A stretch of DNA of 64,000 nt from Haliclona indistincta (Eukaryota > Porifera > Demospongiae > Haplosclerida > Chalinidae): the NCBI GenBank assembly GCA_964017065.1, contig OZ024792.1, positions 2,785,754 through 2,849,753 on the forward strand. Reading direction: 5' to 3'. How positions within the stretch are numbered: position 1 is the first letter of the stretch; the number at the start of each line of letters is the position of its first letter. Shown here in pieces: positions 19,870 through 60,681 of the stretch. A model generated the notes under the pieces. It had not been told where the DNA came from. It did not search any database and worked only from the letters and a program-made list of their open reading frames with translations. The position numbers and the translations under genes are program-made.

Positions 19870-21409
19870 TCATTGTCTAACTGTAATAGTTAATAGTATA
19901 CCTGGTTTCAGTTTCTTCCAAAGTAAAACCAAAACTGTAACCAGCAGCACAGCAGCAACCAGTACTACCACCACTATGACAGCTAGGATGCTCAAAGTGA
20001 TTATGACTGTGTTCAGTGAAGAATCAGTTGGAGTACTGGAGTCAATTGGGGTAGGGTTACCAAACACCACCTGTGTACTGCTGATTTCTTGCCGTGCCGT
20101 CATCATTGATGATCTTGAGATAGAGTCAACTATAAAATGCGTTTTCAACATTCTGTAGTGAATAATAATTGTTATGTATACCTGAAGAGAATATCTGCCG
20201 ACTAGCCATGGATGAGGTTGATAGACCAATAATACCTGTAGCTATGAACAATATGCAGGGCTTGCACTTTCACCGCCATTACGCACGGCCAATATTTTTC
20301 ATGCGATAATGTGATGAAATCGTCCATAAAATCATTCAAGCTTAGACATCATACACTACTCATGCCTCAATCCTGCTGAATCAGCCTCACAACCACATCT
20401 CTTCTGCTAACAGATTATGTTTCGTCAATGACTTACATGTACTGGGAGCAGAAAAATTATCAGAAAGAGATGCAAGTTGACCAGGTCCAGCCTGGTTAAT
20501 AGCCACCACAGTTATCATGATGTAGGTAGTCCCTTGAACTGGCTGGTACCATAAAGTAGAGTGTTCAGTGTACAGCTGTTCACTCTCTCCATCAGTAGTT
20601 TTTATAGTGACATAGTAGTTAAAAATTGGTACCCCCTCTAAAGTAAAGGGAGGACTCCAGGAGATGAGGAAGATAGTAGAGTTGACAAAGGTCACAGTGA
20701 GGTTACTCACTGAGTTTAAGATGCCTATAAGTTGTAACATTATCTAATATCTTATACAAACACATGTGACTCTATCTTCTCATACCTTGTACTAGTAGCA
20801 GTGCAGATGCACTAACATTGGTACATGTAACTGTGCTTTCAAAGCTGATAGCAGTACATGTGATATTGGTGGCATTGTCTGTAGAAGATATTTTTATACT
20901 CAGCATTGATCTACGTAGTTCTCCGTCCTCTTTCACTGTATTTATAGATATTTCTTCTGTGTTGTCTATTTGTACTCCATTAGCTTCCCAGCGAAAAGCT
21001 TGTGCAACAGCAGTGCATGAAAAATTAGCTACTCCATTGACTGAGACATTGACAGGTCTAGGAGGATTTGTGATTTCTGAAAAAAACAGAAATTTATTGC
21101 TTCATTATACATCACATCAGTTGTATAAAATCTTCTTCTGTGTTGTCTGTAATGCCGGCATGCAAGCACTGTGCCTAGTAGCTTATAGTTTCAAACAGTT
21201 CTGTCACAGCATTGTTCGTGTATTCATCACGTCTCTATTAATTTTACTGTTCAAACTATGGATCAATGTGTGATTCATCTCGAGGATTTTATCCAACTTA
21301 CTTGCATGCACAACATGATGCACTTACCTGCTCCTTGGGAAATCAGCCACGTGTACAACGCCAGGCCTAATACCACGCGAGTCACGGCAGCTCCATAATC
21401 ACCAGACAT
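19870..21409 (-). CDS. Receptor A: Ig + FN3 type I membrane protein, short tail
   Basis: Exons on the minus strand: signal peptide (21409 to about 21330; MSGDYGAAVTRVVLGLALY); Ig-like exon about 21077-20794 with NFSCTAVAQAFRWEANGVQ and SSTDNATNITCTAI (C, W, C of an Ig fold); FN3 exon about 20725-20439 with LISWSPPFTLEGVPI; a small stalk exon near 20190; and a stalk/TM exon (about 20150-19900) with a long Val/Leu helix ending VLLWKKLKPG. Read through, the tail stops after about a dozen residues (stop at 19870) and has no tyrosine; a splice to an unseen tail exon cannot be excluded (GTATAC follows LKPG). N-glycosylation sequons are frequent. Same architecture as the other receptors here. Divergent partner of B. 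Confidence 0.78.
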
Positions 21410-21611
21410 GGCATTGATTCGATCCGCTCTAGATCTGATTTACTGCTTCCTTTTATGTTCATTCAGGATATGTATACGTCATTAGCTTATCATCGAGGTC
21501 GAGGGCAAGGTGCAACAAGCCGCTTGCCCTTCGCGTTGCCGTTTGCCCGCTCGTCACACAATTTTTTTACATCGACTTGCCCCAAAAAATTGTATTCTCA
21601 AACGTCCCAAG
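21410..21611. promoter_or_regulatory. Bidirectional promoter of receptors A and B
   Basis: 202 bp between the A and B start codons. Contains GGTCGAGGGCAAGGTGCAAC and a nearby inverted TTGCCC. The region is duplicated almost intact at 35235-35423. Confidence 0.55.
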
Positions 21612-22290
21612 ATGCCCTCGATTCGAAGAGCAGTTATCCAGTTTGTGTTAGTTAGTAAGATTTTTACATTCATCGCAGCTCAAGAACCAGGTAAGAATTT
21701 ATTTGTATTTCCGCTACTGAATCATCTGCTGCTTTTATTTGCAAGAAATCGTAATTTCTCCAAGACCTGTGAACTCTTCAGTCAATGGTGTAGCTGAGTT
21801 TACTTGTACTGGTGTTGCAATCAGTATTGTTTGGAAAGCTAACGAAGTGCAACTAGATGCTAGTGAAAGAATTTTCATAGGTACAACAGCAGTAAGTGAG
21901 GAAATACGCATTTCAACATTGAGAATGACATACTGCGGACAATGCTGCAAACATAACGTGTGTTGCCATCAGTTTGACTCCACCTTCAATTGTTATTAGT
22001 GACTCAACACTACTGTTAGTGCAAGGTATCAGACTATAATATCATACCGTCGATAGCATGCAACTGTGAATGAATGCGCAGGCTTGTTGGAGTCAGTCAA
22101 TGACTTGAATTTGACCATCATTATTCCCACCACTATCCTAATCTCTTGGAGTCCTCCCTTCACTCTGGAGGGGGTGCCCATCCTAGGCTACAATGTCACC
22201 ATTATCAGTAACACCACCAGCAGAGTTCAAAGGGAGAAAATGTCGGTATCAGGCAACACTACAGCAATAATATACTCCAACTAATGTTGT
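21612..22290 (+). pseudogene. Receptor B: truncated copy of B'
   Basis: Signal exon MPSIRRAVIQFVLVSKIF (21612-21690) and Ig exon (about 21746-22024) are nearly identical to B' at 35424. The Ig exon lacks 8 bases (GTATTTTC in B'), which shifts the frame before the second Ig cysteine. The FN3 exon (from about 22081) has LISWSPPFTLEGVPILGY but breaks off at about 22284, where homology to B' ends and unrelated DNA begins. No TM or tail exon follows. It is a dead partial duplicate. Confidence 0.85.
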
Positions 22291-22649
22291 GTTCCACTCG
22301 TAATGATCCATACGTGCTTTTTAATGCTTGCCTTATAAACCAATGCCTGGGTCGCTTGTGGAGCGAGATTTACAGCCAAACGCAACATGTAAGTACCATC
22401 TTTGACCGCCAAAGGGTGTAACTTGCACGTGGAGCTAGGCACGCCTACCTAGGCTGCCACGCGATTAATGAGGTGAGAGTTCACGCCGAAGGCGTTACAG
22501 TTGTTTGCGAAGATTTTGCTAACGGAAGCGAAAGCGGAAGTATGACGTCGGCCAATCAAACGCACGTAACTGAAGCTGTACACGTGACGAAAAGTGAATT
22601 TGATTGGCCAGCGTCACACTTCCGCTTTTGACATCGATACGGTGTAATA
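22291..22649. other. Unassigned DNA with an inverted ETS/CCAAT module pair
   Basis: No gene recognised. At 22524-22554 and inverted at 22598-22628 lies a module AAGCGGAAGTNTGACG followed by GCCAATCAAA. A closely related module sits in the C/F promoter at 42908-42938. Confidence 0.5.
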
Positions 22650-23537: not shown

Positions 23538-23539
23538 TA

Positions 23540-24885: not shown

Positions 24886-24889
24886 TTTC

Positions 24890-28345: not shown

Positions 28346-28578
28346 ATTGAAACAGAAGAGGAGAAAGTCCGGCGAATCAGGCCGAGTTGCTTGTAGGCCT
28401 TAGCCGAGATGATGCTGTAGTGCTTATACCAAGAGAGATTGGAAGAGAATATGATACCTAAATCTTTACAGTGATCAAGAGGAGGAACTTCTGCCTGACC
28501 AATTTGCTGGAATATCAAAGCATTCTCTTCTTTAATAGTAGTACAAACGCTGCGAGAAGCACTACTACTGTCTTGCAC
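28346..28578 (-). mobile_element. Non-LTR retrotransposon remnant, upstream half
   Basis: Reads PPLDHCKDLGIIFSSNLSW and KAYKQLGLIRRTFSSS, then passes in frame into the inserted element. It is the other half of the remnant at 25250-25805. The upstream boundary is uncertain because the segment begins within a larger RT-type coding region. Confidence 0.7.
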
Positions 28579-29256
28579 GGCTCGCTAGCTAAATGAGCAC
28601 ACGCGAGCTCGCTCGCCAATTCGTTTACGGAATTCCGTAGTTTAGATCCGTGTCATCCGTTGCAGTGACGTCTTCACGCAATATAGTTGTATGCGGACAC
28701 GTTGCATATCCACTTGTGCTGTATTATCTATGGTGTTACCCTTCAGTGTTATCACTACTCTGTTAACTGTTGTGGACCAGTGGCAGATTTTTCATTGCTA
28801 ATCTACCACTTTTGATTTCGTCAAAATAATTATTATTATAATTATTTTAAAATTAATAATATTAATAATAATGAGTAATTTTGATACCGACCCATGTGTG
28901 TGTGGGTAAAATAAGTTCATTACTCCAGATCAGTAACACAAAAATAGCATCGCCGTCCAAGTACATAAGATCCTCCATGTAATTTATGACAGCATTGGCC
29001 TCTAGATATAGTGGAGTTCTTTGGTCCATAACAGTAATAGCTCCAAAGGTAGCACTGTATTACTGCATAATTGAAATAATATTAAGAATAATTGAAGAAT
29101 AATATTAAGAATAATAAAGAATAATTGAATAGCGAAGCACGTACAATACTATAATACGAGTACTGACACAATTAGTGGCCTCATGAGGCCACTAATTGTG
29201 GCAGTACGCTGGGGCGATGAGTGTTGCATGTTTCTCGAAATGTTAATATGTATGTA
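28579..29256. other. AT-rich intergenic DNA with palindromes
   Basis: No gene. Contains a degenerate copy (28770-28826) of the outer part of the arms of the large inverted repeat at 29257-29642, and a perfect 34-bp palindrome at 29167-29200. Confidence 0.6.
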
Positions 29257-35095: not shown

Positions 35096-35234
35096 TATGG
35101 TTCAATGTGTGATTCATCCCAAGGATTTTACTTGCATGCACAATGCACTTACCTGGTCCTTGGGAAATCAACCACGTGTACAACGCCAGGCCTAATACCA
35201 CGCGAGTCACGGCAGCTCCATAATCACCAGACAT
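35096..35234 (-). pseudogene. Receptor A': orphan signal-peptide exon
   Basis: Copy of the A signal exon (MSGDYGAAVTRVVLGLALYT at 35234) with its GTAAGT donor and a bit of the first intron. The Ig, FN3 and TM exons that should follow on the minus strand are absent; the SINE-like repeat takes their place. It keeps the divergent position next to B'. Confidence 0.8.
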
Positions 35235-35423
35235 GGCATTGATTCGATCCGCTCTAGATCTGATGTACTGCTAGTCTGCTTCCTTTTATGTTCATTCAGG
35301 ATACGCATACGTCATTAGCTTATCGTCGAGGTCGAGGGCAAGGTGCAACAAGCCTCTTGCCGTTTGCCCGCTCGTCTCACAATTTTTACATCTATGCCCA
35401 AAAATAATATTCTCAAACGTCCC

Positions 35424-36748
35424 ATGATGCCGTCGATTCGAAGAGCAGTTTTCCAGTTTGTGTTAGTTAGCAAGATTTTTACATTCATCGCAGCTCAAGA
35501 ACCAGGTAAGAATTAATTTTTATTTCGGCTACTGAATCATCTGCTGCTTTTATTTGCAAGAAATCATAATTTCTCCAAGACCTGTGAACTCTTCAGTCAA
35601 TGGTGTAGCTGAGTTTACTTGTACTGCTGTTGCAATCAGTATTGTTTGGAAAGCTAACGAAGTGCAACTAGATGCTAGTGAAAGAATTTTCATAGGTACA
35701 ACAGCAGTAAGTGGGGAAATACGCATTTCAACATTGAGAATGACAGTATTTTCTACTGCGGACAATGCTGCAAACATAACGTGTGTTGCCGTCAGTTTGA
35801 CTCCACCTTCAATTGTTATTAGTGACACAGCACTACTGTTAGTGCAAGGTAACAGACTATATTATTATACCGTCGATAGCATGCAACTGTGAATAAATGT
35901 GCAGGCTTGTTGGAGTCAGTCAATGACCTGAATTTGACCATCATTAATCCCACCACTATCCAAATCTCTTGGTGTCCTCCCTTCACTCTGGAGGGGGTGC
36001 CCATCCTAGGCTACAATGTCACCATTATCAGTAACACCACCAGCAGAGTTCAAAGGGAGAAAATGTCGGTATCAGGCAACACTACAGCAATATACTACAA
36101 CTACTTCTTCAACAGCACTGTCACAGTGCATGTGCTTCCCTTCAACAAAGCTGGTCCAGGAAAATCTGCATTTAGCACTATTAGGATACTAAATACAATT
36201 CAAAATCAAGGTAACTTAAACCTTATATGGCTTATCAGTCATGCATTCACGTAGTAAACTAGTATTTTCTATTTCCTCATTAGAGAGCACAGCTGCAGCT
36301 GCAACTCAAAGTACTAAATATAGCTCCATGGCTATTATCGTAGCAAATGCTAACAATGGTAAACAAATTGAAAGTAAAATAATCAGGTTATCAAGCAAGC
36401 AACACTATTATTGTGTATCAATTTTATCGTACACAGCTACAACACATTTGTCAACTATTGACAAGATCACTATAGTGGTTTTTCCTGTGATTGCCATGGT
36501 ATCAATTCTGCTGCTAACAACACTGATGCTTTATTGTTTGAAGCGAAGACATGTCAATAGAAAAGGTATTTAAATTCTGTTGTAATAATTATTACATGTA
36601 GAATTGTAATGGTAATGCAGAAACACAGGCTGCAGAGCTCAAAGATGTAATCATGATGAACAAAAGTCCAGCATATGCTGAAGTAAAGAGACACACTCCA
36701 CAAAAGCTTGATTTGTTTGAAAACAGTGCTTATGGTATGGTGAAATGA
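35424..36748 (+). CDS. Receptor B': Ig + FN3 membrane receptor with two-tyrosine tail
   Basis: Exons: signal (35424-35505, MMPSIRRAVIQFVLV...IAAQEPG); Ig-like (about 35560-35848; FTCTAVAISIVWKANEVQ, NAANITCVAVS, with both Cys and the Trp); FN3 (about 35905-36211; ISWCPPFTLEGVPILGY, FNKAGPGKSAF); a Thr/Ala-rich stalk exon (about 36285-36358); TM exon (about 36437-36565; IVVFPVIAMVSILLLTTLML then KRRHVNRK); tail exon 36620-36748. The tail contains SPAYAEVKRH and, 20 residues after the first Tyr, NSAYGMVK at the C-terminus; S-A-Y-G-M-V fits the ITIM consensus. The frame is intact throughout. Expected to be a plasma-membrane receptor that could recruit SH2 proteins. The ligand is unknown. Confidence 0.82.
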
Positions 36749-38256: not shown

Positions 38257-41200
38257 CTAAACATCCATCAACCTCCTGTCCTTTCTGTGCCCGGGAATAT
38301 TTCTGCTAAAACTCCTATTAGGCACACTTTCAGAGGTGCTGGTCTGCTGTGTACATAAAATGTTTTAGAGACATGCATCTCGGTATCACAAACGACTGAC
38401 TGTAGATAATGCTTCCTCATTAGCTTGTGTCTCATAACTGTCTGTCGGTAAATCAGCTGAAAAATAATTTTTTTATTAACAAATGATCTTCTACCAATGA
38501 GAACTGACCATATAAAGTCGAACGGGGTCCCATAGACTTTGACAAAAGCTAGAAAGTTGGCTTGAATAACCATAAATGCATGGATGATGAATTTTACCTT
38601 CGTGTGACTTGCAACATTCTTCAAACTGTTTTGTTTTACTACCTCTTGGGTGTTGTCATGTTTTGGCGAGCCTTCTTCCTCAGTGCCGTTGGGTTCTGAA
38701 AGCAATCGCATGCGATCTTCTTCATTGTTGTCAGATATCAATGAGTCTTCGTCCTCGTCGTCTTCTGTGTGATCAAGTATAGAAAGCATCTCTCCTTCTG
38801 CGCTGATGGATTCTGGTAAACTCTCTATTTTACCAGATTTTGCATTCACACCAATAGTGTCATCAGGTAAATTTTCCTTAAAAACCAAAATGAACAATGA
38901 AGAGAAGTATTGAAATACATCGCACAGGAACTTCAATAATATAGGTACAATAATCTCCATGTAACTACAAAATTTATTCTTATTTTCTGTATTATTAATC
39001 AAAATCATTAACAAGAGTGCATAATGAGAGTGACCAGTGGTGCTCTCTCATTATGTGCTCCTGCCATTAATTAACTATACTAGAAGGTACAAATTTGCAA
39101 AAAATTGCCTAAACGTGACATAATTATACATGTACATGTATATACATGCATATTGATATTTCCATGATACGCACAATGCTCCATGCCCCTACATACTGCC
39201 ATGATTTAGTGACCTCGCTTTGCTTGACAATTATTTGCTCCTGGTTTTATTCACCTCATAATGTTCTAGCTCCAAATTCGTAACATCTGAAACATACATA
39301 TCATTTCCTAGCAGCAATGATAATAAATAAAAATAAGCATAACAATTCAAAAATCATACTTTTTGATCTTCTATTGCGACAGTACATCACCAACACTCCT
39401 GCAACGATCGCGACTATTATCAGGACTACTAAAATTCCAACACACACCAAACTGATCAATATTCCTATAGTGAACACAATTATGTGTGTGTGTCTATCAA
39501 TTCATCATTATAATAATAATACTTGCTGATGAGGAATCAGTTGGATAGTTAGAATTCCTCGGTACAGGATCACTTGATACCTGAACTGCTATTGTACTGA
39601 AAACACTGCTTGCCTGTTCTGTTGTTGATGGAACAGAACTTTCTACAATGTATGTGAAAAAAACAGGTTTCACTATAATTATGCTGACTATAACGACATA
39701 TAAACATACCTGTAGCTGAAATGTGAACACCCTCCGTGGTGTCAACTGTTGGTAGAATCAGTTACATATGCATAGAATATAGTAGAAAATTTTGTTGAGG
39801 AAAACAGTTTAATTAACCTACGACGTAATATTTATTGCAAGAGTGGATCATAAGTACATAATTTTGCCTGATAAAAGCTCAAAGACGCCGCTCGTGCTTT
39901 ATTGCACACTTTGGCATTTATTACACTAACATGGCTGCCATCGTCACTTTTGACCAACAATGTGCAATGTTGTATGAACAATAAAGCACTCTGGATTGGG
40001 TCTCATGCATTATCTTTCATACAGCACTTCAATCGTGCTTAAAATAACACATGCCATCAATTGTAACAAACAGACTTACTAGTGGATGGACTTTCCTTTG
40101 TATATATTGCGGGATGACCTGCTCCACCCTCAATAATTGGTACCACTGTGACTTTATTAGGAACAGTATCTGACTGGTACCACCAATTAGGACTTGTAGT
40201 AGAGAATCTTGCTTCATCCTCTGTGCTACTGATAATGATGTCGTAGGCAAGAACGTCTACTCCAGCCAGAGTATAGGGAGGAATCCAGGTGATGAGGATA
40301 TAAGTGGCGTTAACAGAGGTCACACTGATGTTGGTGACAGGCCCTGGCAATCCTGTGTAAAAGAATATAAGTGCACGCATGACATCCAATCTAACTCAGT
40401 CAGCAGCATGCTGTAACATCACCCACAATATACATGTACCTTGGACAAGCAGGAGTGCTGGATTACTGTCAATAACTACCAGTGGGTCAGTTAAAGCAGC
40501 ATGGCAAGTAATGTTGGTAGCATTCTTAGTAGTAGAAGACACCCACAGTGTCAGGGTTGACATACGAATGTTCTCTGCTCCAACAGTCATAGTAACAACA
40601 ACATCGGCGTCATTGTTGTCCAGTTGCACTGCATTTGCTTTCCACCAACCAGTATCACCAGTAAAGGAACATGTAAATGTTACATTAGAATTGACTGAAG
40701 CATTCCGTGATTGAGGTTCCTCAATAATATCTGTGAAAAGATCAAAAATGTGCTTAGTTGCTACTAAACTTTTTGGTAAATATCTTTAAGGTTAACTAAC
40801 AGGTACACCAGATAAACATCATGATAATGCAATTTATATTAGCCTTTTCTGCAGTTAGAGCCCAGTCAGTGCTGGCCAGAATGGCTAGCTTGTTCATGCA
40901 CCTTTTTCAAGCTCAAGCACTACACTGTTCTGCACTATAGACTACTTGGTCTGTAGGCAGAAAACTCTGGTCTTCAGACAACCAGCTCGGGTCGTCAGAT
41001 ATGCATAACTGAAGCTGTAAAACTAAATAAAATACTGATTTATGCTTGCTCCAATACAAATTTTTCAATGAGTGAGGAGATACAAAATTATCACGGCTCT
41101 GGCTGCTGAGGCAAAAAATGTAAGCTAAGCACATCACATACAGTTTGCGTTGTTGATGCCTCAGTGGAATTTCAAGTTTCCCGAAGGATTACTGAGTGTG

Positions 41201-42797
41201 TCAGCAATAAGCATACAAGATTTAAGCAACTGTAAATTGTAATACGAGAATAATACAATTCAGAAAATTAAAGTTGAATGTGTGTCCTTGTGTTGGTTGT
41301 TCCAATGCCTTAGCAAGCAGCAAGAATGCTGGTGAAAGACAGAACGACACCAAATGGTTCAGCCCAAAGAGGCAGAATACTAATCCCTTGACCCTAAATA
41401 ACCATGCATGATCATTGAGAGAACTAACGGATCTACTCAGCACATGCATGTAAAAATTCTAAAATAGGCACTATACATAGGTTGCACGCCGAGGTGTAAA
41501 GTTTGGCTTGCGTGTAACAAGGACGTGAGTGTGTGTAAACGGGACTTATGCCATCAGTGTTTAGATGTTGGTTTATGACACTCACTGATGACACTGCATG
41601 CCAAGAAACTGTAACCAAAGCTCATGCATGGTTCCTAAATATAATTGTTTTGAGACTTAACTGTCTTGAATTCCATCTCAACCTCAGTTAGTATAAGTAC
41701 ATCTCCACAGTTATTTTAACTATGCCTTGTAGCCTGCCAGCTACAGAGTCTTACTGTCTCGGCACACAACACATTTTTTAGCAACTATAGATTCACTTAC
41801 CCTGGAACAGCCAATTGTGTGTACGCTCACTTGTGTTCATAATAATTATTTGCTCAGTCTTGTCAATGTGGTATATAGCTAGCTACATATAATGTTCTAA
41901 TCAGCAACCTCTGCAGACACCCTATATGAGGCCAGTTTGGGGTGATGATTTAAACTTTATCATAATTAAGTGCACCTCCACTAACTGAATAGGGCAATTA
42001 TAAGAGCTATAATAATGCCTGTAACCCCACTGGATAAGTGGAGGAAAAACAAAATGGGAGCTTTCTATAAATAATGACCATGGAAATTCTCTAGGCTGAG
42101 GGAGTGTCAGCTCAGAGTATAGTGTCTAACCCAAAACATTGTGTACATCTAGTAACTGTATACTAAGACATACAAGCACTATTACTTTACACAGTGTTCA
42201 GTTCTACTTGGCCTTCTACTAGCGCCATCATTCAAAGTATCGGTAACATCGACTAACATCACGCAGCATGTTTAGCAACTATTTTTGCCATTTTGTTCAT
42301 TATTAGTCGCACATATTAATGTTTGTTGTGCAATCATTATTTCTGTTTGACTCAATACTTTAGTCACTAGAGCCTATCACAAAGGTGTTAAGACAACTAT
42401 GTTGGTATCAGTTCAACACTAATTTTGACACTCTTCTTGGTGCCAGCTAGTATTTCAGGGACAGCTTTCTGTTCCATCTATTACAAATGTCAGAGGGTGT
42501 GCAGCTAGTATTTCAGAGGGTGTGCAGCAACTTAAACATGAAACCAATGCCCGTGTGTAGTAAGTTATTTTATGTACTTATACTTTATCTCGCTAGAAAA
42601 TATCTAAACTACGCACATTTAATGTAACATGTAGCGCACCACTATACATGTACTGTATAAAAGTACTGTTGCAGATATAAAGGACGAACAAGTAATTTTT
42701 ATTCTTTGTTAAATTGTTATCACTTACCTGCAATTTGACCGGGAATAGTTACAAGGCAAAACAATAGACTGATCCGCCAAAACAAATTTGCTGACAT
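38257..42797 (-). CDS. Receptor C: Ig + FN3 membrane receptor with long acidic tail
   Basis: Start at 42797: signal MSANLFWRISLLFCLVTIPG (42797-42730), then a 2-kb intron. Ig exon about 40731-40440 (TFTCSFTGDTGWWKANAVQ, KNATNITCHAAL); FN3 exon about 40354-40079 (ILITWIPPYTLAGVDVLAYD); two Ser/Thr/Pro stalk exons (39746-39709, 39645-39523); TM exon (39464-39357; GILISLVCVGILVVLIIVAI...YCRNRRSK). Tail exons: VTNLELEHYE (39290-39257); a long acidic one (about 38879-38597; HTEDDEDEDSLISDNNEED); TDSYETQANEEALS (about 38460-38395); and TSTSESVPNRSF ending LMDV (stop at 38257). The last two align with the matching exons of receptor D and share the GTCAGT donor, which supports the model. Divergent with F. 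Confidence 0.78.
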
Positions 42798-43085
42798 AAT
42801 TGTAATAACGATAGACGTGTAGGTAGAATCAGAATTCGCTGACTGAGTTACTAGGAAAAGTATGCATTAGCCGCATTACACTACAGCGATCTTGCAACGC
42901 CACAGTCAAAGCGGAAGTAATACGTTGACCAATCAAACATGGCTGGTCACGTGTGGAGTTCACGTGGTATGCCCTAGCGTGTATTTAACTATTCACGCAT
43001 TGCATTACATGATCACTGACTACTTATGCATTGTACTTCATTTCGCATCGTGGTGCAAGAACTCTGCAAAGCCGTCAGCAGCAAA
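42798..43085. promoter_or_regulatory. Bidirectional promoter of receptors C and F
   Basis: 288 bp between start codons. Contains CGGAAGT (ETS-type) and CCAATCAAA (CCAAT box) spaced as in the 22.5-kb module, two CACGTG boxes (42956, 42971) and a TATTTAACT at 42983. Confidence 0.6.
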
Positions 43086-44407
43086 ATGTTGCTAGGAGTA
43101 CTAGTTTTGCTGCTGTTTTCAGCTTGTGATGATGTACTCATAGCAGCTCAAGAAGCAAGTACGAAACTTAATGATCTAATCATTCCTCTAGCTATCTTTA
43201 TTATCTCTCTGAAGAAATCACAATTCCTCCTCGATCAATCAACACCTCAGTTAGTGGAGAAGTTGAGTTCAATTGCACTGCAATTGCAAATGGTTTCGTT
43301 TGGAGAGCTAATGGAGTGCAGCTAAACAGCAGCAGAAAAGGAGTCACCATATCTACTGCAGTGGTAAACAAAACAACGAACATACGTACATCGATAATAA
43401 GAATGATAGTGTCTTCAACCGATAATGCAAAAAATATCACGTGTACTGCTATCAGCCGATCGTCTCCACCAACAATTGATAGCAGTGATCCAGCTCTGTT
43501 ATTTGTGCAAGGTATATTGCATGTAGTATTTTAATATTACACACTTTGTGCATGCATACAGGTTTATTGGAGCCAGCAAGAAACCTCACCACGACCATCT
43601 TCAATTCCTCTACTGTCCTCATCTCTTGGAGTCCTCCCTTCACTCTGGAGGGGGTACCCATCCTGGGCTATATCATTACTATTAACAACACTGCTAGCAG
43701 TGGCAAAAATGAAACAATTCAAACTGCAGGCAATGCCACACTGCTGTACTACACTATTGATCCTAGTGTCAACAATATTGTAGCTGTCACTGTTATTGCT
43801 GTCAATATGGCTGGGAAGGGAGATCATGTGTCTACTACCATGAACATACTTCTTAGACCATCAATCACACTAGTAGTTCCAAGAAACAGCCAATATGCAA
43901 GTAATTGTTATTATAACTACATATTATTCTATTACATAACAAATTATTATCAATGATATCACTCACTATAGCAGCTGCAAATCTAACCCCAGAAACCAGT
44001 CAAGCCACAGCTATAATTTATCCTGCTAATAATGGTAAGCAAATAGCGGTACAATCTGCATTGTATACATGTATCTCCATGGTGATGTCATTTGTATACT
44101 GCTACAGCACTATTTCCAACTGTTGAGTTTGTCACTGTAATATCAGTTTCATCTGCGTTTCTAATAACAGCATTGTGGCTGTTGCTGTTTCTCTGTTGCT
44201 TAAGAAGACACATCAAAAGAAAAGGTACACAATTTTTCAGTCTATGAACTTACTCACTAAGCTGGTTTGCTCCTCATAGAAGCACTGAAAGATCGGAAAG
44301 ATGTTATCATAATGAACGACTCTCAAGCATATGCAGTGGTTAAGAGACACACACAGCTGCAACGGATTCAAACTTATGACAACAGTGCTTATGGCATCAT
44401 AATATAG
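43086..44407 (+). CDS. Receptor F: Ig + FN3 membrane receptor with two-tyrosine tail
   Basis: Signal MLLGVLVLLLFSACDDVLIA (43086 on; an upstream in-frame Met at 43026 would spoil the signal). Ig exon about 43215-43512 (EFNCTAIANGFVWRANGVQ, SSTDNAKNITCTAIS). FN3 exon about 43561-43897 (VLISWSPPFTLEGVPILGY, AVNMAGKGDHV). Small Thr-rich stalk exon (about 43973-44033). TM exon (about 44106-44224; VTVISVSSAFLITALWLLLF then CLRRHIKRK). Tail exon (about 44279-44407): QAYAVVKRH and, 20 residues later, NSAYGIII at the end; S-A-Y-G-I-I fits an ITIM. Very close to receptor E in all exons. Probably an intact, expressed receptor. Confidence 0.82.
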
Positions 44408-46354: not shown

Positions 46355-47660
46355 CATGGACGTGGTGCAAGAACTCGGCTGCAAAGTCAGCAGCAAAATA
46401 TTGCAAAGAGTACTAGTTTTGCTGCTGCTGTTTTCAGCTTGCGATGATGTAGCTCAAGAAGCAAGTATGAAACTTAATGATCCTCTAGCTATCTTTATCT
46501 TCTCCCTGAACAAGTCACAATTCCTCCTCGTTGCAAATAGTTTCGTTTGGAGAGCTAATGGAGTGCAGGTAGACAGCGTCAGAAAAGGAGTTATCAAATT
46601 ATACTGCAGCACCAAACAAGAATATACGTACATCAACAGTGAGAATGATAGTTTCTTCAACTGATAACGCAAAAAAATATCAAGTGTACTGCTATCAGCA
46701 TAAGGTATATTGCATGAAGTATTTCACACTTTGTGCATGCATACAGGTCAGCAAGTAACCTCACTACGACCATCTTCAATTCTTCTACTGTCCTCATCTC
46801 TTGGAATCCTCCCTTCACTCTGGAGGGGGTACTGGGCTATATCATTACTACTAACGACACTGCTAGCAGTGATAAAAATTAAACAATTCAAACAGCAGGC
46901 ACACTGAAAAAATAGTATTGCTGCTTTACGGGACATTTTTTACTAGAGATTTGATGTGAGTAAAATAAATCAGCCATGTAGCATTTATTATTGTGCTTTT
47001 ACATGGAATACATGAGTGTGTAATGGCTATATGGAAGCAAAAGTAACTGAGCTGAGCTAACATCCTCAAAACATGATATAAAATTCCATGCAGGAAATGA
47101 CTTGTTAAAAACACATAACCTAATCTCAACAATAATGTAACTGTCACTGTTATTGCTGTCAATATGCCGGGAACGGATATCCTGTACCTACTACCATGAA
47201 CATTCTTCTCAGACCATCAACCACATTAGTAGTCCAAGTAAAAGCCAATGTACAAATAATTGTTATTATAACTACAAATTATTTTTCCCCTATTACAATG
47301 ATCAATGATATTACTCACTATAGCAGCTGCAAATCTAACCCCAGAAACCAGTCAACCACTGCTGCAATTTGTCCCAATAATGGTAAACAAATAGCGGCAC
47401 AATCTGCACTGTAGTATCTCCATGGTGATGTCATTATTATGTATACAGCTACAGCACTATTTTCAACGGTTGAAGTTGTCACCGTTTCATCAGTTTCATC
47501 TGCGTTTACATTGATTTGGTTACTAGTAACAGCATTGTGGCTGTTTCTCTGTTGTCTAAGAAGAAGACACGTCAAAAGTTTCAGTCTATGAACTTAGCAA
47601 TGGATTCAAACTTATGACAACAGTGCTTATGGCATCACTTATAGTGTTGAAAACATAATA
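46355..47660 (+). pseudogene. Decayed receptor (F/E type)
   Basis: Collinear with receptor F: signal region (KILQRVLVLLLLFSACDDVA; the F start ATG is mutated to ATA), Ig exon with about 70 bp deleted including the first cysteine, broken FN3 exon (LISWNPPFTLEGV), stalk, TM (LVTALWLFLCCLRRRH-like) and the end of the tail (ACAACAGTGCTTATGGCATC). Multiple frameshifts. A third copy of the F/E unit. Confidence 0.88.
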
Positions 47661-49490: not shown

Positions 49491-49494
49491 GCTA

Positions 49495-53470: not shown

Positions 53471-56400
53471 TCAGTGTAGTCCCTCGTAACCATCCTCAGC
53501 TTTCTTTGTGCTAATAGAATTTTGACACTGCGTACACTGTACATGCATGTGATTAGCACAAACCTGGACAACAGGAGTAGTCGAAAATCCTACTTTTGGC
53601 TTAGACAATGACTAAAAAAAAAGAATACAGACACTTATAAATTCGATTGTACAAGTGTTCCAACACTATTTCTCACCTGAATCACTTCTGACTCTGAAGG
53701 GGCATTTTCAAGCTCTACTGGTTTTGGTGCTGTTTTTAATAGGTGAGAATGACAGGTGAGACAATGGTAGATTTAACTTACTGAATGGATCAAGAAACAT
53801 TTTAGCTGGAGCACTCTTGCTGTAAACTCCATATTCATTCTCCATCTCTCTCTTCTTCTTACTCACGGGTATCTCTCTGGGAACCTTTCTACTATGAGAT
53901 ACAACTTGTGAGGTGCCAGTCTGTGTACATAAAACATTTTAATAACAACATCATCACCACAAAAATAACCACTGACTTTAGATGATGTCTCTTCATCAGC
54001 TAGCATCCCATAATCATATGTATCACCTGTCTTGATAGCTACCATAGAATGCGACTTGCGAAAAGCCGGCTAACATGAAAAATTATTTTTTGAAGTGTAA
54101 CATAGTGAAGGTAAGGTATGACCTTTCTAAACATCATGTGTCCACAGTCAAATCTCACAACCTTTTGGCTCGGACCAGCCAACAAACCTTTAGACTCCTA
54201 TAACAATGTAACCATTGATGATGAGAGTGTCTTATCACTTTTAGCAGAAACACTTACTGAGCTATCACTGGCATCAAATACATTTTTAGTAAGATCCTAC
54301 AATGAGATTATTTCAATGAAGAACAGATGATACAGAGGACATACCTCCTTGCCAACAAAATCATCTATATCAGTAGATCGGTCCTAAATGAAAAAAAATC
54401 ATTGTAATAGCACATTTGAGCCGACATAGTAGTGTGTTGTGTTTAAGAGCATGAGATCAGGGCTCTCTCCCAATATCACAGATCATTTAACTTTGTTGGT
54501 CGGCTTTAAATTGGGCCAGAGGTTGTAAATAGGTTTGTAACATAATTATGAATATCACTAACCACAATAATCATTTGTGGATTGGTATGTCTATGAGTTA
54601 TTTGTCCAAGTGTTTGTCAAGTGAGTAATTATACAGGACAGTGGACATACATTCTGTATGGGAGAACTTTGACACTGCTGCAATGGAGGAGGAGCAATTG
54701 TCTCTTTGAGGTCCTCTTCTGGCTTCTCTTCCACTCTATTACTCTGGGTAATACACACACAAACTAATAGGTGGTACAGTATAATAATTATGCACATCAC
54801 TATAATAGTTAAACAGTGCATCCGAGGATCTACGCAATTTAGAAGACCGAGAGCCGTTGCTATATAGCGTCCGAGCGTAGCGAGGGCGCTATGGTAACGG
54901 CGCGAGGGCTTCTACATCGCGTAGATCCAATTGGATGCACTGTCTAACTGATTTAGACCATAGCAACAGCAAACAGAAACGACGCGAACGACGAGCAAGG
55001 ACACGCGAGCGCTGTTAAAATTATTCAGTAGAACTCTGCTCACAGAACCGTAATCTGCACCGTGTGGTGGGATTCCATTATGAGATTTAGAGACGCGCAG
55101 CTATGCAACCTGGTTGGTCAACATCGCTTAGCTGTGGTCTAAACTTAAATATTGGGGTTCCTTTTGAGAGAACTAGAGATATGGGATATTGAATAAACTT
55201 ATGCAATGCTTGAGCTATTGTAATAAGAAAAAGAAAAGTGGGAGAGGCAAGTGGTATAATACCTCTGTATTAACTTCTATATCAAGAGAAAATGGTTCCT
55301 TGTCTGCTCCCTCTCCTGTGCTGTCATTTCCTGGTGGACTATCCTTCTGGTCTGTACTGCTAGATTCTGCAACCATTGCTGAAACCTCTTCATCCTCTTC
55401 TGTGTTGCGTGAAGGTTCCATGTTGCCGGGTTCAATAAGTTCTGGTGAAGGTTCCATGTTGCCGGGTTCAATAAGTTCTGGTGAAGGTTCCATGTTGCCG
55501 GGTTCAATAAGTTCTGGTGAAGGTTCCATGTTGCCGGGTTCAATAAGTTCTGGTGAAGGTTCCATGTTGCCGGGTTCAATAAGTTCTGGTGAAGGTTCCA
55601 TGCTGCCGGGTTCAATAAGTTCTGGTGAAGGTTCCATGTTGCCGGGTTCAATAAGTTCTGGTGAAGGTTCCATGTTGCCGGGTTCAATAAGTTCTGGTGA
55701 AGGTTCCATGTTGCCGGGTTCAATAAGTTCTGGTGAAGGTTCCATGTTGCCGGGTTCAATAAGTTCTGGTGAAGGTTCCATGTTGCCGGGTTCAATAAGT
55801 TCTGGTGAAGGTTCCATGCTGCCGGGTTCAATAAGTTCTGGTGAAGGTTTCATGTTGCCGAGTTCAATAGCCATTTCCTAAAATTAAATAAGTACAGTTT
55901 AGTTGGACCAGTATAATGAACATACTGGGGAACCATCACAAAAATTTTTATTGACTGCTTGATAGGTACCAGCTGGCACATACTGCATCAGTGCAAAACA
56001 AGAGAGTTGTTAGTTCTTGTCTACTAAGGTTATAAATGGTCAGAGCACTGAAAATCAGTTGTTAGAGTGATACAAGTTCACTTCTGTCAAAAACGACTTT
56101 CTGTAGAGCATACTAACCACTTTTGTCTGTCAGATTACTAGACTTTTGCAAAGCGCTTGAGCACATGAAAAGCTGAATGGTTATAACAATCTGGAAATTC
56201 AATATAGCGAAGATACAGACGATAGTTCGCCACTACAGCCGCCATCTTACATTACATATAGAGGTCTACCAGCAGTAGTAGTAATAGGATGGTATATAAA
56301 TAATTAATTTTATTAGAGAAAGCTTGTCGTCTATCTAGCATTCTGATCCATTCACTATCATACTCCTACTCACCTGTGTTACTGGGTAATAATCTAAAGG

Positions 56401-59110
56401 AAACAAAAAAAACAATATTGAATTGATAAAAATGATAATCATTATTACCTGATTTTTTCTTCGAACAACACCACAACACTATTGCAACAACAATCGCGAT
56501 CACTGCTGTCACACCTAATAATACCACTCCGATACACATGAAACCGATCAATAATTTTATTCCTATAAATAGCAATTTTGTCAAGTATAATAATTATAGT
56601 GTTACAGTGATCAACATACCTATAGGTGGATCAAATGTGGAATTAGTTGGACTTTTGGAACTGTCAAGTGTTGGACTTTTGGAACTGTCAAGTGTTGGAC
56701 CCATAGGGCTAGTACTGACGACACTGCTCTTTCGTTCTGTTGTTGTCAGTGAATTTATTACAACACTGTACAAGTAATACACAAACCTGTAAACAAAGAA
56801 CTAAGGGTGCTAGTAAATGAAGAGTGAACAGTTACGCCAGTGTCATCTGTAGGATGAAAATTCAAACTAATTGTTATCCTTGAAAGTGCCTACAGACTTA
56901 CTGGGAGATGGACAACTGTTGGTGTGGTTTGTTGCATTACCTAAACCAGCTTTATTAACCGGTACTATGGTGACATTATCAGGACAATCAGAATAATACC
57001 AAAATGATTCTTTAGCAAAGAATAGTTGATCCACTGCACTGATTGTACTGCTGATAATGACATTGTAACCATTGATAGCTACTCCAGCCAGAGTATAGGG
57101 AGGAGTCCAGGTGATGAGGACACATGTTGAGTTGATGGGAGTCACATTGATGTTACTGACTGGACCTAGCAACCCTATACAGAAGAAGCTTTACTGACAG
57201 CTAGCTACAGGTACACAAGCAAGATAGTAGCTAGAGTATAATGTCCTGTCGCTTATTTTTAGTTGATATACAGACATGAAGACCTGTTAATACAGAGCAC
57301 TGAGCTTCTGTATCAGCTACATTCCTCAAGCATGATTACATCATGCCGTCAGGTGACATGTTTCGAGCGATCCGATTGGCTGAAAGGCATTATCAATCCA
57401 AGGAGTGTGCGACTTTAAATTTCCGCCACTCAGCACGAAAAAACTTCCTTACTATGCAGTTTTCATACGAGCCGTACAGCTAAGTGTGAACATACACAAT
57501 ACTATGGCTGTATAAATCTCGTACGCAATAGCGGCCCATTTATTACTTTGTATGCACTTAGGAATGATAGGTTACTGTTTTTATACACACGACAAAAAAA
57601 CGAAAATCTTATGTGGAAAAAACTTGTACATAGTAGATTTTTAGACACAGTGAGTAGAATTTTAGAAGAGCACAAAATGCTTAAACTCTTGGCATGGTCT
57701 ATGTAATTCTCTTGTATAGATAGTACTGTACTAATAAGACAGAATCTACTGCATGCAGTAATATGCTGTCTATCACCCGTTATACAGTATCTACCTTGTA
57801 CAAGCAGTAGTGCTTGACGACTGTTATCAAATGTAATGGGATCAACAGAACTAGAATGGCAAGTGATGTTGGTAGCATTCTCAGGAGAAGACACCCACAG
57901 TATCAGGGTAGAAATGCGAATGTTCTCTGCTTCATCTAGCAATTCAGTTTTTATAAAAACATCTTTACCATTATCCAGTTGCTCTCCATTAGATCGCAAC
58001 CAAATAGAGTTACCAGCAGCAACACAAGTAAAGGTCACATTGGTATTGATTGAAGTATTGATGGATTGAGGGTCTTGTAGAATCCCTATAAAATTAAAAA
58101 AGGTTTATGAAATCCTGGCCCTTTCCTGTGTTAGCTATTATAGTATTTTTATGAAATTGATTTCAATGAACTTTGTATTTTTCTGTCACTTCAAGCAATT
58201 GTAAAACGCTATGGCTTGCGTTCCAGCAACGGGAGCAGCATTTTAACGCTTAGAGTCCCGGCATGTAAAAAACAGGGAAAATCATCAAAAGCAAAGCCCT
58301 AAGCTGGTAACTAAACCCTGAACCATAGTCCCTAAAAACCTTCTAACAGCGCAAAGTTGGGAGGTCATTCTATAATAGAGACTCCAGCCCTCACTAAAGA
58401 TCGTCAGGAGAGTCGTTTAAAAAAATTAAAACGGCGCACAAATCCTCCTAAACAGTGCAATTAAACTAGATATAAAAGCAAAAAACCTGGCGCTAGTAGG
58501 ACTCGAACCGTTAACCACAAGCACCTCTGATCCACGCTGTCCACTCAACCACCGCAGCCACACCGATCAGTAGTATTATTCATAGGGCGCAAAATGAGTG
58601 GGCATTATATGTAGTAGCACCCCTTCGGGGTGGTACACGCCCACATGCCGGGAGTCTAAGCGTTAAAATGCCCATCCCATTACCAAGACAGGAGACACAG
58701 CATAACATAAAACTTAGTTATAAACTATATCGTGTACTTGTTTTAAATGTAGGTTAAGTAAAAAGGTTTCAAGCTTCTGTCACTAAAAAAGCACAACCTA
58801 TATCATAATTATAGTGGGAAATTTCATGTGAATTATTTGGAAAATTGCGAGTTTTTTCGTGAAACACAAATTATGTCTGGAAATACAAAATATCTACAAT
58901 TGGCAATTTGCCTGGAGTTAGGTGAGTACAAAGACAGTTCTAACATGTCTACTAGTGTGCTAACAAAGCTTGGTAACAAGCTCATTATTCGCCACGCTCC
59001 ACTTATGACTAGAGAGAAAACTCACTTGCTATTTGAGCATGGTTTATATCTATGATCGAAGAAAGGTAGACCACTAATGCCAGCAGACCGGTATAATATG
59101 AAAAAGACAT
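53471..59110 (-). CDS. Receptor D: Ig + FN3 membrane receptor with repeat-bearing tail
   Basis: Start at 59110: signal MSFSYYTGLLALVVYLSSII (exon 59110-59026, GTGAGT donor). Ig exon about 58086-57796 (TFTCVAAGNSIWLRSNGEQ, ENATNITCHSS); FN3 exon about 57173-56897 (VLITWTPPYTLAGVAINGY); stalk with repeated LDSSKSPT (about 56760-56625); TM exon about 56565-56450 (VVLLGVTAVIAIVVAIVLWC then CSKKKSG). Tail exons: a long one (about 55874-55260) with 13 copies of a 12-residue repeat PSPELIEPGNME, then EDEEVSAMVAESSS; EEKPEEDLKETIAPPPLQQ (about 54745-54650); TGDTYDYGMLADEETSS (about 54066-53978); REMENEYGVYSKSAPAKMF (53930-53782); and a last exon with VQCTQCQNS to the stop at 53471. Tail tyrosines include YGML (YxxL). 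Orthologous layout to C. Divergent with E. Confidence 0.8.
54811..54947. mobile_element. Small foldback element in a receptor D intron
   Basis: ACAGTGCATCC..GGATCTACGC at the left is mirrored by GCGTAGATCC..GGATGCACTGT at the right, with a CG-rich centre (AGCGTAGCGAGGGCGCT). About 135 bp, almost fully palindromic. Confidence 0.8.
55411..55872. repeat. 36-bp coding tandem repeat, 13 copies
   Basis: Unit GAAGGTTCCATGTTGCCGGG then TTCAATAAGTTCTGGT, exact period 36, copies differing by 0-1 base except the last. It encodes 12 residues (minus strand) in the tail of receptor D; being a multiple of 3 it keeps frame. The other strands are also open, but only the minus frame joins the tail exons. Confidence 0.95.
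58239..58670. mobile_element. TIR element containing a tRNA-like sequence
   Basis: 28-bp near-perfect terminal inverted repeats (CATTTTAACGCTTAGAGTCC at 58239; mirrored at 58643-58670). Inside, on the minus strand (about 58565-58483), lie TGGTTGAGTGG (pol III A box) and GGTTCGAGTCC (B box), followed by TTTTTT. The T-stem does not pair, so it is not an intact tRNA. Sits in the first intron of receptor D. Confidence 0.8.
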
Positions 59111-59281
59111 CTATAATACACGGTCCTGGTAGATCGGATCCTCTAAGCTACTCTGCTACTCCTATAATATCCGTGCATAGACTAGTGGGAGGAGCTGGGA
59201 GGGGCATGAGGTTAATCGATCTAATACCACGCGTGCGTATCACACGCGGTTATTTACGTGTACGTGTGCGCGCTCGCAAGA
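59111..59281. promoter_or_regulatory. Bidirectional promoter of receptors D and E
   Basis: 171 bp between the divergent start codons. Contains GGGAGGAGCTGGGAGGGGC and alternating ACGTGTACGTGTGCGCGC near 59255. Inferred from layout. Confidence 0.5.
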
Positions 59282-60681
59282 ATGTTTTGCAGAGTTGTTC
59301 AACTTGGTCTGCTTTTTGCAGCTTCTTGCGATGTATTCATAGCAGCTCAAGAAGCAAGTACGAAGTTTTTGTGATCAATTTACTCCTCTATTATTAATCC
59401 TCTCAAGAAATCACAGGCCCTCCTCGACCAATCAACACCTCAGTTAGTGAAGAAGTTGAATTCAGCTGCACTGCAGCTGCAAATGGTTTCGTTTGGAGAG
59501 CTAATGGAGTGCAGCTAGACAGCAGAGAAGGTATCATCATATTTACAGTACCGGTAAACAAAGAAATGAACATACGTACATCGATAATAAGAATGATAGT
59601 GTCTTCAACCGATAATGCAACAAATATCACGTGTACTGCTATCAGCCAGTTCCCACCATCAAGTGATATCAGTGATCCAGCTCTGTTACTTGTGCAAGGT
59701 AGTTATTTGCATGTAATATCTTCATATGATACGCATGCATACAGGTTTATTGGAGCCAGCAAGTCACCTCACCATGACCATCTTCAATCCCTCTACTCTC
59801 CTCATCTCTTGGAGCCCTCCCTTCACTCTGGAGGGGGTACCCATCCTGGGCTATATCATTACTATTGACAACACTGCTAGCAGTGATAAAAATGAAACAA
59901 TTCAAACACCAGGCAATGCTACAATGCTGTACTACACTATTGATCCCAATGTCAACAATAACATAACTGTCACTTTATTTCCTATCAATATGGCTGGGAA
60001 AGGGGAATCTTTGTTTACTACCACTATCATACTCTCTCGACCATTGTCTCCATCAACTACACTACTAGCTCCAAGTATCAGCAAACATACAAGTACTTAA
60101 TCATGTTATTACAACTATACTCTCCATTACACATACACAGAGGTATCACTCACTACTATTATCACAGTTACAAATCTAATCTCAGCATCTACTGCATCAA
60201 CTGATGATCTTGCAAACAATGGTAAACAGTGACAATATTGAATAGCGCAGATATCAACTCTGTTCCTACCCCCCTACTGAGTGTTTTTGTATCAATACTG
60301 GTTGTACTGGTTCTCTATAATTTGCATGATAATTGAGTGTATAATATCTCTATGTATACAGCTACAGCACTATTGTCAACTGCTGAATTGGTCACTGTAA
60401 TATCAGTTTCATCTGCGATTACATCGAGTCTGTTACTAACAACAGCACTATTATTGTTTCTATGTTGCTTAAGAAAGAGACACATCAAAAGAAAAGGTAT
60501 ATGCTATAGCTAATATGCAGTTTACCCAACAATCCATCTTATAGAAGCACGGAAAGATCTGAAAGATGCTATCATAATGAATGATAGTGAAGCATATGCA
60601 GTGGTTAAGAGACACACTCAGCTGCAACGGATTGAAACACATGACAATAGCGCTTATGGTGTCGTCATTATAAAGCAATGA
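59282..60681 (+). CDS. Receptor E: Ig + FN3 membrane receptor with two-tyrosine tail
   Basis: Signal MFCRVVQLGLLFAASCDVFI (59282 on). Ig exon about 59410-59697 (EFSCTAAANGFVWRANGVQ, SSTDNATNITCTAIS). FN3 exon about 59745-60093 (LLISWSPPFTLEGVPILGY, PINMAGKGESLF). Thr-rich stalk exon (about 60140-60220). TM exon (about 60361-60496; SSAITSSLLLTTALLLFLCC then LRKRHIKRK). Tail (about 60543-60681): EAYAVVKRH and, 20 residues on, NSAYGVVIIKQ. S-A-Y-G-V-V fits the ITIM consensus. The frame is intact. Closest relative is F. Its 3' end converges on the TRIM gene 120 bp away. Confidence 0.83.

Follow-up and report, generated by a model that had tools for sequence, protein, structure and literature searches.

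Head-to-head pairs of Ig-FN3 receptor genes with unlike tails in the sponge Haliclona indistincta: candidate paired recognition receptors

Introduction

To our knowledge, self/non-self recognition molecules have been described from few animals only. The vertebrate paired receptors (KIR, LILR, SIRP) have like ectodomains, unlike tails and ITIM-type inhibition; they are not arranged head to head as a rule, and their activating members are known to work through ITAM adaptors rather than death domains. In Botryllus, the fester family and fester co-receptor genes (FF/FcoR) form adjacent, co-expressed receptor gene pairs at one polymorphic locus, the content of which varies by whole pairs (PMC12065747). 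The Alr complex of Hydractinia is a large cluster with 41 Ig-superfamily genes (PMC11999971).

Here we analyze a stretch of 64,000 nucleotides of the H. indistincta genome (contig OZ024792.1, C10 in our numbering; hereafter, the window) together with its relatives elsewhere in the same genome. We think it probable that the genes encode paired recognition receptors, a single-pass family whose genes have been duplicated and lost pairwise, in head-to-head units.

Results

The original prediction placed two receptor genes back to back at four positions in the window, and this was borne out: there are four head-to-head signal-exon pairs of Ig-FN3 membrane receptor genes, with ATG-ATG spacings of 159 to 288 bp, measured between chosen ATGs, some genes having other in-frame ATGs. 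The features are listed by window position, with pair number and m (minus) or p (plus) for each gene.

19870..20087, minus: 1m stalk, TM and short tail without tyrosine; tail end uncertain
20443..20724, minus: 1m FN3 exon, Pfam fn3 above cut-off
20786..21076, minus: 1m Ig exon, Pfam I-set above cut-off
21328..21409, minus: 1m signal-peptide exon, ATG 21409; 84% identity over 49 aa with the 2m stretch
21410..21611, no strand: pair 1 inter-ATG region, 202 bp, ATGs 21409/21612
21612..22278, plus: 1p pseudogene; signal exon, Ig with frameshift, FN3 cut
35153..35234, minus: 2m stump, a lone signal exon
35235..35393, no strand: pair 2 inter-ATG region, 159 bp, ATGs 35234/35394
35394..36748, plus: 2p receptor; signal, Ig, FN3, stalk, TM, A-type tail (SAYGMV)
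38598..38876, minus: candidate additional acidic tail exon for 3m, by a putative phase-0 splice from the tail exon
39231..42797, minus: 3m receptor; signal 42728-42797, Ig 40440-40730, FN3 40080-40352, stalk 39523-39642, TM 39360-39464, tail 39231-39307
42798..43085, no strand: pair 3 inter-ATG region, 288 bp, ATGs 42797/43086
43086..44407, plus: 3p receptor; signal, Ig, FN3, stalk, TM, A-type tail (SAYGII)
46362..47636, plus: decayed copy of a 3p-like receptor
54594..55877, minus: possible 3' alternative to the 4m tail; a repeat exon at 55263-55877 plus a last exon at 54594-54743, phase 0, putatively spliced
56335..59110, minus: 4m receptor; signal 59026-59110, Ig 57795-58085, FN3 56902-57174, stalk 56620-56736, TM 56449-56562, tail 56335-56393 (SDYYPV)
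59111..59281, no strand: pair 4 inter-ATG region, 171 bp, ATGs 59110/59282
59282..60681, plus: 4p receptor; signal, Ig, FN3, stalk 60168-60221, TM, A-type tail (SAYGVV)

Both members can be read in pairs 3 and 4, and pairs 1 and 2 each kept one member. The proposed plan of signal, Ig, FN3, stalk, TM and tail exons holds for 2p, 3m, 3p, 4m, and 4p, each of which carries signal, Ig, FN3, and TM in one phase-consistent gene with phase-1 joins throughout, as predicted. The plan holds in part for 1m, an Ig-FN3 single-pass receptor with a fused stalk/TM exon, and fails for the frameshifted and cut 1p and for the stump 2m, neither of which combines signal, Ig, FN3, and TM in one gene. No match was found downstream of 1p with the TM and tail of 2p as queries, and no Ig or FN3 match was found behind the 2m signal exon. 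Ten window exons were submitted to Pfam: the 1m Ig exon scored above cut-off for I-set and the 1m and 3p FN3 exons for fn3, with the other seven below cut-off. FN3 exons from 4m and 4p, outside this set, align with the remaining FN3 exons. In a sequence search of the PDB, no solved structure was close to the Ig domain (LAR and titin at E 0.004-0.005); the FN3 domain matched titin, ROS, receptor phosphatase delta, DCC, and others.

One ITIM-like pattern, [ILVS]xYxx[ILV], is present in each of the 2p, 3p, and 4p tails (SAYG[MIV][VI]) and in 4m (SDYYPV), and none in the 3m tail. Tails were predicted to differ between the minus and plus members of every pair; they do in pairs 3 and 4, where the double-tyrosine A-type tail of 3p and 4p faces other tyrosine or acidic tails on 3m and 4m, and pairs 1 and 2 do not have two tails to compare. 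The 3m and 4m tail exons are uncertain beyond the first tail exon, and the acidic exon of 3m had no genome match except itself. A profile search detected no death domain in the window receptors, including the 3m and 4m tails (best window E 3.1).

The same exon pattern was sought in the rest of the genome. The Ig exon of 4p gave 113 matches and that of 4m gave 99, some of them decayed, mostly at C3:4.00-4.45 Mb, C5:2.27-2.33, C5:3.21-3.39, and C10. The main cluster spans 450 kb on C3, with two clusters on C5; within this larger receptor family the C10 window forms a small outpost, probably an older one. Pairing is not random. In the orientation count, which took in 101 of the 113 match rows, all 19 neighboring Ig exons no more than 1.5 kb apart are divergent, 18 of these outside the window, and within 4 kb there are 29 divergent neighbors compared with a maximum of 21 in 20,000 strand permutations. 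Strand flips occur in 31 of 39 neighbor steps in the examined 200 kb of C3 (runs test z 3.6), compared with 3 of 57 in the comparable other FN3 genes and clusters of the same genome. Pairs also invert as whole blocks: 4069-/4070+ and 4125-/4126+ have the same two signal peptides with strands swapped, and 4132-/4134+ and 4173-/4173+ are likewise block-inverted. Given the family-wide pairing and its absence from the other comparable FN3 genes, the head-to-head pair looks like the unit of evolution in this family. An inverted copy at C3:4079/4344, its Ig exons identical, could be an assembly duplicate. A protein from another public contig matches the C3:4304272+ receptor through its intron, with 100% identity over 264 aa, which supports the Ig-FN3 stretch of that gene and not its tail. 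Within-species variation is hinted at by protein P0011, with a 100% match, versus P0004, the best own-genome match of which is 67%.

Tails in the C3 cluster are modular and include tyrosine tails with ITIM-like motifs and predicted death-domain tails (Pfam, AlphaFold/Foldseek). From DNA alone, each tail was given to the nearest same-strand gene upstream, and the tail count takes in all but 7 of the 16 head-to-head sites within the examined 200 kb. The prediction of unlike tails within a pair has stronger support here than in the window: among the 11 pairs in which both partners received a tail, no class occurs on both sides, and eight are tyrosine/death domain, two tyrosine/VWD, and one B/C. 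Tail classes recur in several genes, with consistent phase wherever joins were read. Six of the eight tyrosine/death-domain pairs, which are all six inside the examined 200 kb, have a damaged member, and the two pairs with no damage visible (4303/4304 and 4356/4359) were chosen for examination given a downstream death-domain exon. The clearest case is 4356904-/4359401+, where the partner Ig exons are 74% identical and a C-like tyrosine tail faces an open death-domain exon; this exon lies 6 kb downstream of 4359401+, beyond repeated DNA. The 4181 head-to-head place, one of the seven beyond the tail count, may be death domain/VWD, without a tyrosine tail.

Fold prediction and Pfam support identification of the C3 tail exon as a putative death domain. 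Pfam Death was above cut-off for cluster copy L044 (2.4e-6), with weak scores for single copies. The best AlphaFold model, from a 25-sequence input, had a pLDDT of 96.0, an earlier 7-sequence model having been poor (pLDDT 52.8). The top 20 Foldseek matches were all death domains, with a TM-score of 0.59-0.77 by query, a best E-value of 0.035, and none of 34 matches below 0.001. The 7-sequence profile gave weak matches to the PDB, the best being THO complex subunit 1 (E 0.07), with RIPK1 at E 0.49. The strand and order of the exons, together with the final two joins in 4126+, suggest that the death-domain exon is spliced to the receptor. Many more death-domain-like exons are found elsewhere in the genome.

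At 4-fold sites in C3 the difference is 0.097 for FN3 and 0.433 for Ig, and in 271 of 276 gene pairs FN3 has the lower value; the FN3 exons are homogenized while the Ig exons diverge. Similar ectodomains had been predicted within pairs, and this stands for 10 of 27 pairs (partner Ig 65-95% identical, five of the ten being copies of one another) and not for the live window pairs 3 and 4, at 40% and 46%; identity is 39-62% in the other 17. Partners are each other's best Ig match in just 4 of 27 pairs, and the readable window pairs group by strand, 3m with 4m and 3p with 4p. General positive selection on the Ig exons is not supported, close copies having a pooled pN/pS of 0.58, although values of 2.46 and 1.14 occur in single pairs.

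Across the family, ATG gaps shrink to 69-70 bp, and because the gaps measure 69-288 bp, a shared bidirectional promoter is plausible. No common promoter word above shuffled sequence was found in the 10 of 13 inter-ATG regions used. An ETS-CCAAT element in the pair 3 gap was rejected as a candidate; it also occurs twice at 22.5 kb and is absent from the examined 200 kb of C3.

Discussion

As paired recognition receptors, the proteins would each consist of a signal peptide, one I-set-like Ig, one FN3, a stalk, a TM, and a modular tail. The two partners would be expressed together from a short bidirectional promoter, the membrane-distal Ig would read a variable cell-surface ligand, and the partners would feed different outputs. 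In the combination common in C3, the tyrosine tail (ITIM-like YxxV/I, NPxY) may recruit SH2/PTB proteins, and the facing death-domain tail may lead to death or NF-kB-type signaling, the pair setting a threshold between attack and tolerance. The two live pairs of C10 would instead set an A-type tyrosine tail against another tyrosine or acidic tail, without a death domain. The most likely job is self/non-self or microbe recognition, of which we infer the self/non-self part. A more elaborate form of this idea, which we regard as tentative and somewhat doubtful, is a histocompatibility-like megacluster, where the unit is a head-to-head pair whose Ig ectodomains are common or matched, the ITIM-like partner tolerates and the death-domain partner kills or rejects, the FN3 stem is kept interchangeable by cluster-wide conversion, the Ig diversifies, and phase-1 tails are shuffled.

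The same paired system could serve microbe or symbiont recognition in innate immunity rather than allorecognition; this overlaps with the main reading and is a serious possibility, if short of probable. It would accord with the response of Ig and death-domain genes to microbial cues in two sponges, as described in PMC6208332, and with the many further death-domain-like exons in the genome, although histocompatibility complexes, as outlined in PMC12065747, are just as good a match for the size of the cluster and its pairing. An unlikely alternative is an ordinary expanded adhesion or receptor family of independently acting genes, where inverted tandem duplication left the head-to-head order behind as a fossil only. 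The many decayed members (window pairs 1 and 2, six of the eight tyrosine/death-domain pairs), the low partner Ig identity in 17 of 27 pairs, and the failure to find a common promoter word all fit a fossil order. However, such an order would have to coexist with the rarity of flips in other FN3 genes, with heterologous pairs that move and flip as blocks, and with the lack of any assigned pair with the same tail class twice. Mis-assembled exons or assembly errors are a very improbable source of the tail differences: the uncertain 3m and 4m tails and the 4079/4344 copy lend themselves to it, but tail classes recur in phase in several genes, and the public contig matches C3:4304272+ over its Ig-FN3 stretch, though not its tail.

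For paired recognition receptors, the roughly 100 Ig exons arranged as head-to-head receptor pairs with unlike tails provide concrete candidate genes, making allorecognition or immune recognition in this sponge directly testable. No description of paired or death-domain Ig-FN3 receptors in sponges was found in the open-access titles and abstract openings searched. A death domain facing an ITIM-like tail, if true, would be a different build of the balance between activation and inhibition of NK receptors and Botryllus FF/FcoR.

Among described systems, Botryllus FF/FcoR shares the adjacent pairing of receptor genes, and its Ig co-receptors have ITIM, hemITAM, or core YxxI/L/V tails; it differs in having Ig and sushi ectodomains and one partner without a known signaling motif, whereas the sponge family is Ig-FN3 and head to head, and a death-domain partner is not mentioned in the parts of that account used here (PMC12065747). 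The suggested comparison with Hydractinia Alr holds as an analogy by description and not as membership: both have large clusters, and ITIM/hemITAM motifs are reported for Alr (PMC12065747), but Alr proteins have V-set and I-set domains where the sponge genes have one I-set-like Ig and one FN3, and neither head-to-head pairing nor death domains are mentioned in the consulted portion of PMC11999971. Sponge Ig-TIR receptors and an Ig/CARD sponge gene likewise join Ig to a TIR or death-fold signaling domain, but number one or two per species, head-to-head pairing not being mentioned in the text drawn on (PMC6208332). The plant NLR pairs RGA4/RGA5 and RRS1/RPS4 are described as divergent immune receptor genes with generally shared promoter sequences and different roles (PMC9528088); they are intracellular, unrelated proteins, and the likeness is one of genomic logic only.

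Receptor genes and tails in the window

The divergently paired Ig-FN3 receptors of the window prove to be a satellite: the system to which they belong is much larger and mostly paired. The window genes were modeled one exon at a time and are designated by pair (1 to 4) and strand (m, minus; p, plus).

Receptor features of the window
19870-21409, minus: 1m; signal, Ig, FN3, fused stalk/TM exon, short tail
21612-22278, plus: 1p, dead; Ig frameshifted relative to the closely similar 2p, FN3 cut
35153-35234, minus: 2m, single signal exon; stretch 84% identical to 1m over 49 aa
35394-36748, plus: 2p receptor, phase-1 gene model
39231-42797, minus: 3m receptor, phase-1 gene model
43086-44407, plus: 3p receptor, phase-1 gene model
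46362-47636, plus: third dead receptor copy
56335-59110, minus: 4m receptor, phase-1 gene model
59282-60681, plus: 4p receptor, phase-1 gene model

The original prediction placed complete divergent receptors with different tails at four places. This holds at two, pairs 3 and 4, and fails at pairs 1 and 2; clean phase-1 joins from signal peptide to tail are present in 2p, 3m, 3p, 4m and 4p, not in 1p or 2m, and 1m has a fused stalk/TM exon. No match to the 2p TM or tail was found downstream of 1p, and no Ig or FN3 match behind the 2m signal exon. Because 1p is dead, 2m is only a signal exon and the sequences are alike, a single ancestral pair seems to have been copied to give pairs 1 and 2, with the opposite member surviving in each. 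A LINE reverse transcriptase-like open frame of 898 aa, recognized by eye between the two pairs (25888-28584, minus), is perhaps linked to loss of the 2m body. The chosen ATGs are 202, 159, 288 and 171 bp apart in pairs 1 to 4. The Pfam scan took ten window exons, leaving out FN3 of 4m and 4p: the 1m Ig passed the cut-off for I-set and 1m and 3p for fn3, and the seven other exons fell below it, all being alignable nonetheless.

The 2p, 3p and 4p receptors share one tail class (KD.I.MN...AYA.VKRHT....NSAYG..) with one ITIM consensus per tail (SAYGMV, SAYGII and SAYGVV, respectively). The 4m tail has SDYYPV, and the ITIM consensus was not found in the 3m tail. Judged from the sequence, 3m and 4m may continue in phase 0 into acidic or repeat exons; the sole genome match of the 3m acidic exon is itself. 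Since 3p and 4p carry the A-type tail and 3m and 4m different ones, both live pairs do have unlike tails. No death domain was found in the window.

Several other elements lie nearby. A tandem coding repeat of PSPELIEPGNME-like units (55263-55877, minus) is 3' of 4m and in phase with its tail, and a TRIM-like RING/B-box gene (60801-62300, minus) adjoins 4p tail to tail. A CGGAAGT + CCAATCA element occurs at 22535 and 22624 (both inverted) and at 42912, within the pair 3 promoter gap; it was not found in the fetched 200 kb of contig C3. An ADAM-like protease gene (15857-18093 and about 19394-19585, plus) matches Pfam Reprolysin_5 above and Disintegrin below the cut-off. Its TM and last exons (PQDMIPVERNSAYEQ...QENCAYSVV) resemble the TM and B-type tail of C3 receptors on visual comparison and in a weak tblastn match (E 0.021), and exon shuffling may have given the two gene types common tail modules.

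Family size and head-to-head order across the genome

The family extends well beyond the window: the 4p Ig has 113 genome matches and the 4m Ig 99, some decayed or fragmentary, most at C3:4.00-4.45 Mb, followed by C5:2.27-2.33, C5:3.21-3.39 and the window (C10:2785754-2849753). Orientation was analyzed for 101 of the 113, after dropping ten beyond the clusters and two second pieces of one exon. All 19 Ig neighbors at most 1.5 kb apart are divergent, and 18 of these cases come from other parts of the genome than the window. Extending the limit to 4 kb gives 29 divergent, 3 convergent and 11 same-strand neighbors; the highest divergent count in 20,000 strand permutations was 21. The short-distance excess is in part geometry, because Ig sits close to the gene start. 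Along the fetched 200 kb of C3, strand flips at 31 of 39 steps between 40 Ig units (16 divergent, 15 convergent; runs test z 3.6). Control FN3 genes (the best 150 of 2225 candidate hits, none in receptor clusters, merged to 98 units) flip 3 times in 57 steps, although some units may be exons within one long gene, biasing them toward same-strand steps.

Receptor pairs travel as units. The signal peptides of 4069-/4070+ (C3 genes are named by position and strand) recur at 4125-/4126+ with strands swapped, and the 4132/4134 pair, in which Ig-FN3 and Ig-VWD genes face each other, has a strand-swapped counterpart at 4173. The tightest pairs are 69-70 bp apart, ATG to ATG. Of two copies submitted to Pfam, one exceeded the VWD cut-off. 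A VWD-like domain replaces FN3 after the Ig exon at C3:4134230+, 4173015- and 4181815+ (L022, L026, L027), each head-to-head with another family member. Inverted copies of one pair, C3:4076775-4080483 and C3:4343864-4347572, about 265 kb apart, have identical Ig proteins, reflecting a recent inverted duplication, conversion or an assembly duplicate.

Tail classes and death domains

C3 tyrosine tails are of class A (NPVYAEV...ENNAYGV), B (NPAYEQV...ENSAYSTV) or C (DNPAYQMV); other C3 tails are long and terminate in a death-domain exon. On C5, class assignment succeeded for two minus genes, both with a B-like tyrosine tail, and for no plus gene. The C3 200 kb contains 16 head-to-head places, 15 defined by Ig less than 3 kb apart and one with FN3 only on the minus side. 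Both tails were counted at nine: six tyrosine/death domain, two tyrosine/VWD and one B/C. Omitted were six places at which one side lacked an assignment, and 4181, where an Ig-VWD gene faces a partial Ig with a death-domain exon behind it. Two additional C3 pairs, picked for a downstream death-domain exon, are both tyrosine/death domain. None of these 11 pairs has the same class twice. All six tyrosine/death-domain pairs of the 200 kb have a damaged member:

4058: frameshift within the death domain
4070: Ig interrupted
4125: stop within the tail
4139, 4168: fragments
4188: Ig/FN3 damaged

The cleanest such pair is 4356904-/4359401+, with 74% identical partner Igs and FN3 on both sides; 4356904- has a C-like tail, and 6 kb downstream of 4359401+ lies a death-domain exon with an open frame. 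Phase is kept, as read from the DNA, at the last two joins leading to the death-domain exon of 4126+.

Two death-domain copies scored singly were weak (E 0.03-0.06), one being cut short; nine of ten more exons matched Pfam Death, four over the cut-off, including cluster copy L044 (2.4e-6), which is tied to no particular receptor gene. AlphaFold on 25 sequences gave a best model with pLDDT 96.0 (remaining models 85-89). The top 20 of 34 Foldseek matches were all death domains, at a best E-value of only 0.035, and included p84, FADD, ankyrin, Fas-FADD, DR3, TNFR1, RIPK1 and Pelle-Tube. When 150 of 355 candidates were scored, 119 of 140 death-domain-like matches lay outside the C3 receptor cluster, on many contigs, which amounts to a large expansion of death domains across the genome.

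Evolution of Ig, FN3 and tail exons

In 24 C3 genes the 4-fold-site difference is 0.097 for FN3 versus 0.433 for the neighboring Ig, and 271 of the 276 gene pairs have the lower value in FN3. We read this pattern as FN3 gene conversion inside the main C3 cluster. In six window genes the contrast is weak (0.414 versus 0.480). The tail regions also have a mosaic look: 4126+ and 4069- agree at 97-100% through the greater part of the first kilobase and close to the end, but at 57-92% through much of the intervening sequence, and the likeness of 4178- to both is confined to the last part.

The partner ectodomains of the window, predicted to be similar, are only 40% and 46% alike in Ig. Among 27 pairs with both Igs readable, likeness is 65-95% in ten, all on C3, and 39-62% in 17; five of the ten (4079, 4271, 4317, 4343, 4373) are copies of each other, and partners are reciprocal best matches in 4 of 27. 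In the tree, 3m groups with 4m (100/99) and 3p with 4p (96/78). Pooled over 100 overlapping close Ig comparisons, pN/pS is 0.58, with single pairs higher (3p versus 4p 1.14 on 32 changes; one pair 2.46), so general diversifying selection on Ig is not supported in these comparisons.

Within-species variation was approached with 25 public proteins. P0011 has 100% identity to C3:4304272+ across 264 aa, including the intron, and P0012 has 99.5% identity to C3:4025283+ across 210 aa; their source contigs are therefore probably from the same species as the genome. P0004, from a record resembling that of P0011, has a best own-genome match of 67% overall (78-83% exon by exon), and P0013 and P0001, from other contigs, reach 70% and 59%. 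These mismatches hint at gene-content or strong allelic variation, and P0013 and P0001 could come from another species.

Proposed mechanism and relation to known systems

By analogy, a single promoter would supply one cell with two receptors that share a stem, carry a variable Ig and differ in their tails, so that their signals could be compared. Tyrosine-motif tails would engage SH2/PTB proteins, and death-domain tails would lead to death or NF-kB-type signaling. In its logic the proposal resembles vertebrate paired receptors. The window pairs are a simpler form of the paired system, without the death domain. The proposed arrangement would also share the logic of the Botryllus FF/FcoR pairs (PMC12065747) and of head-to-head plant NLR pairs (PMC9528088).
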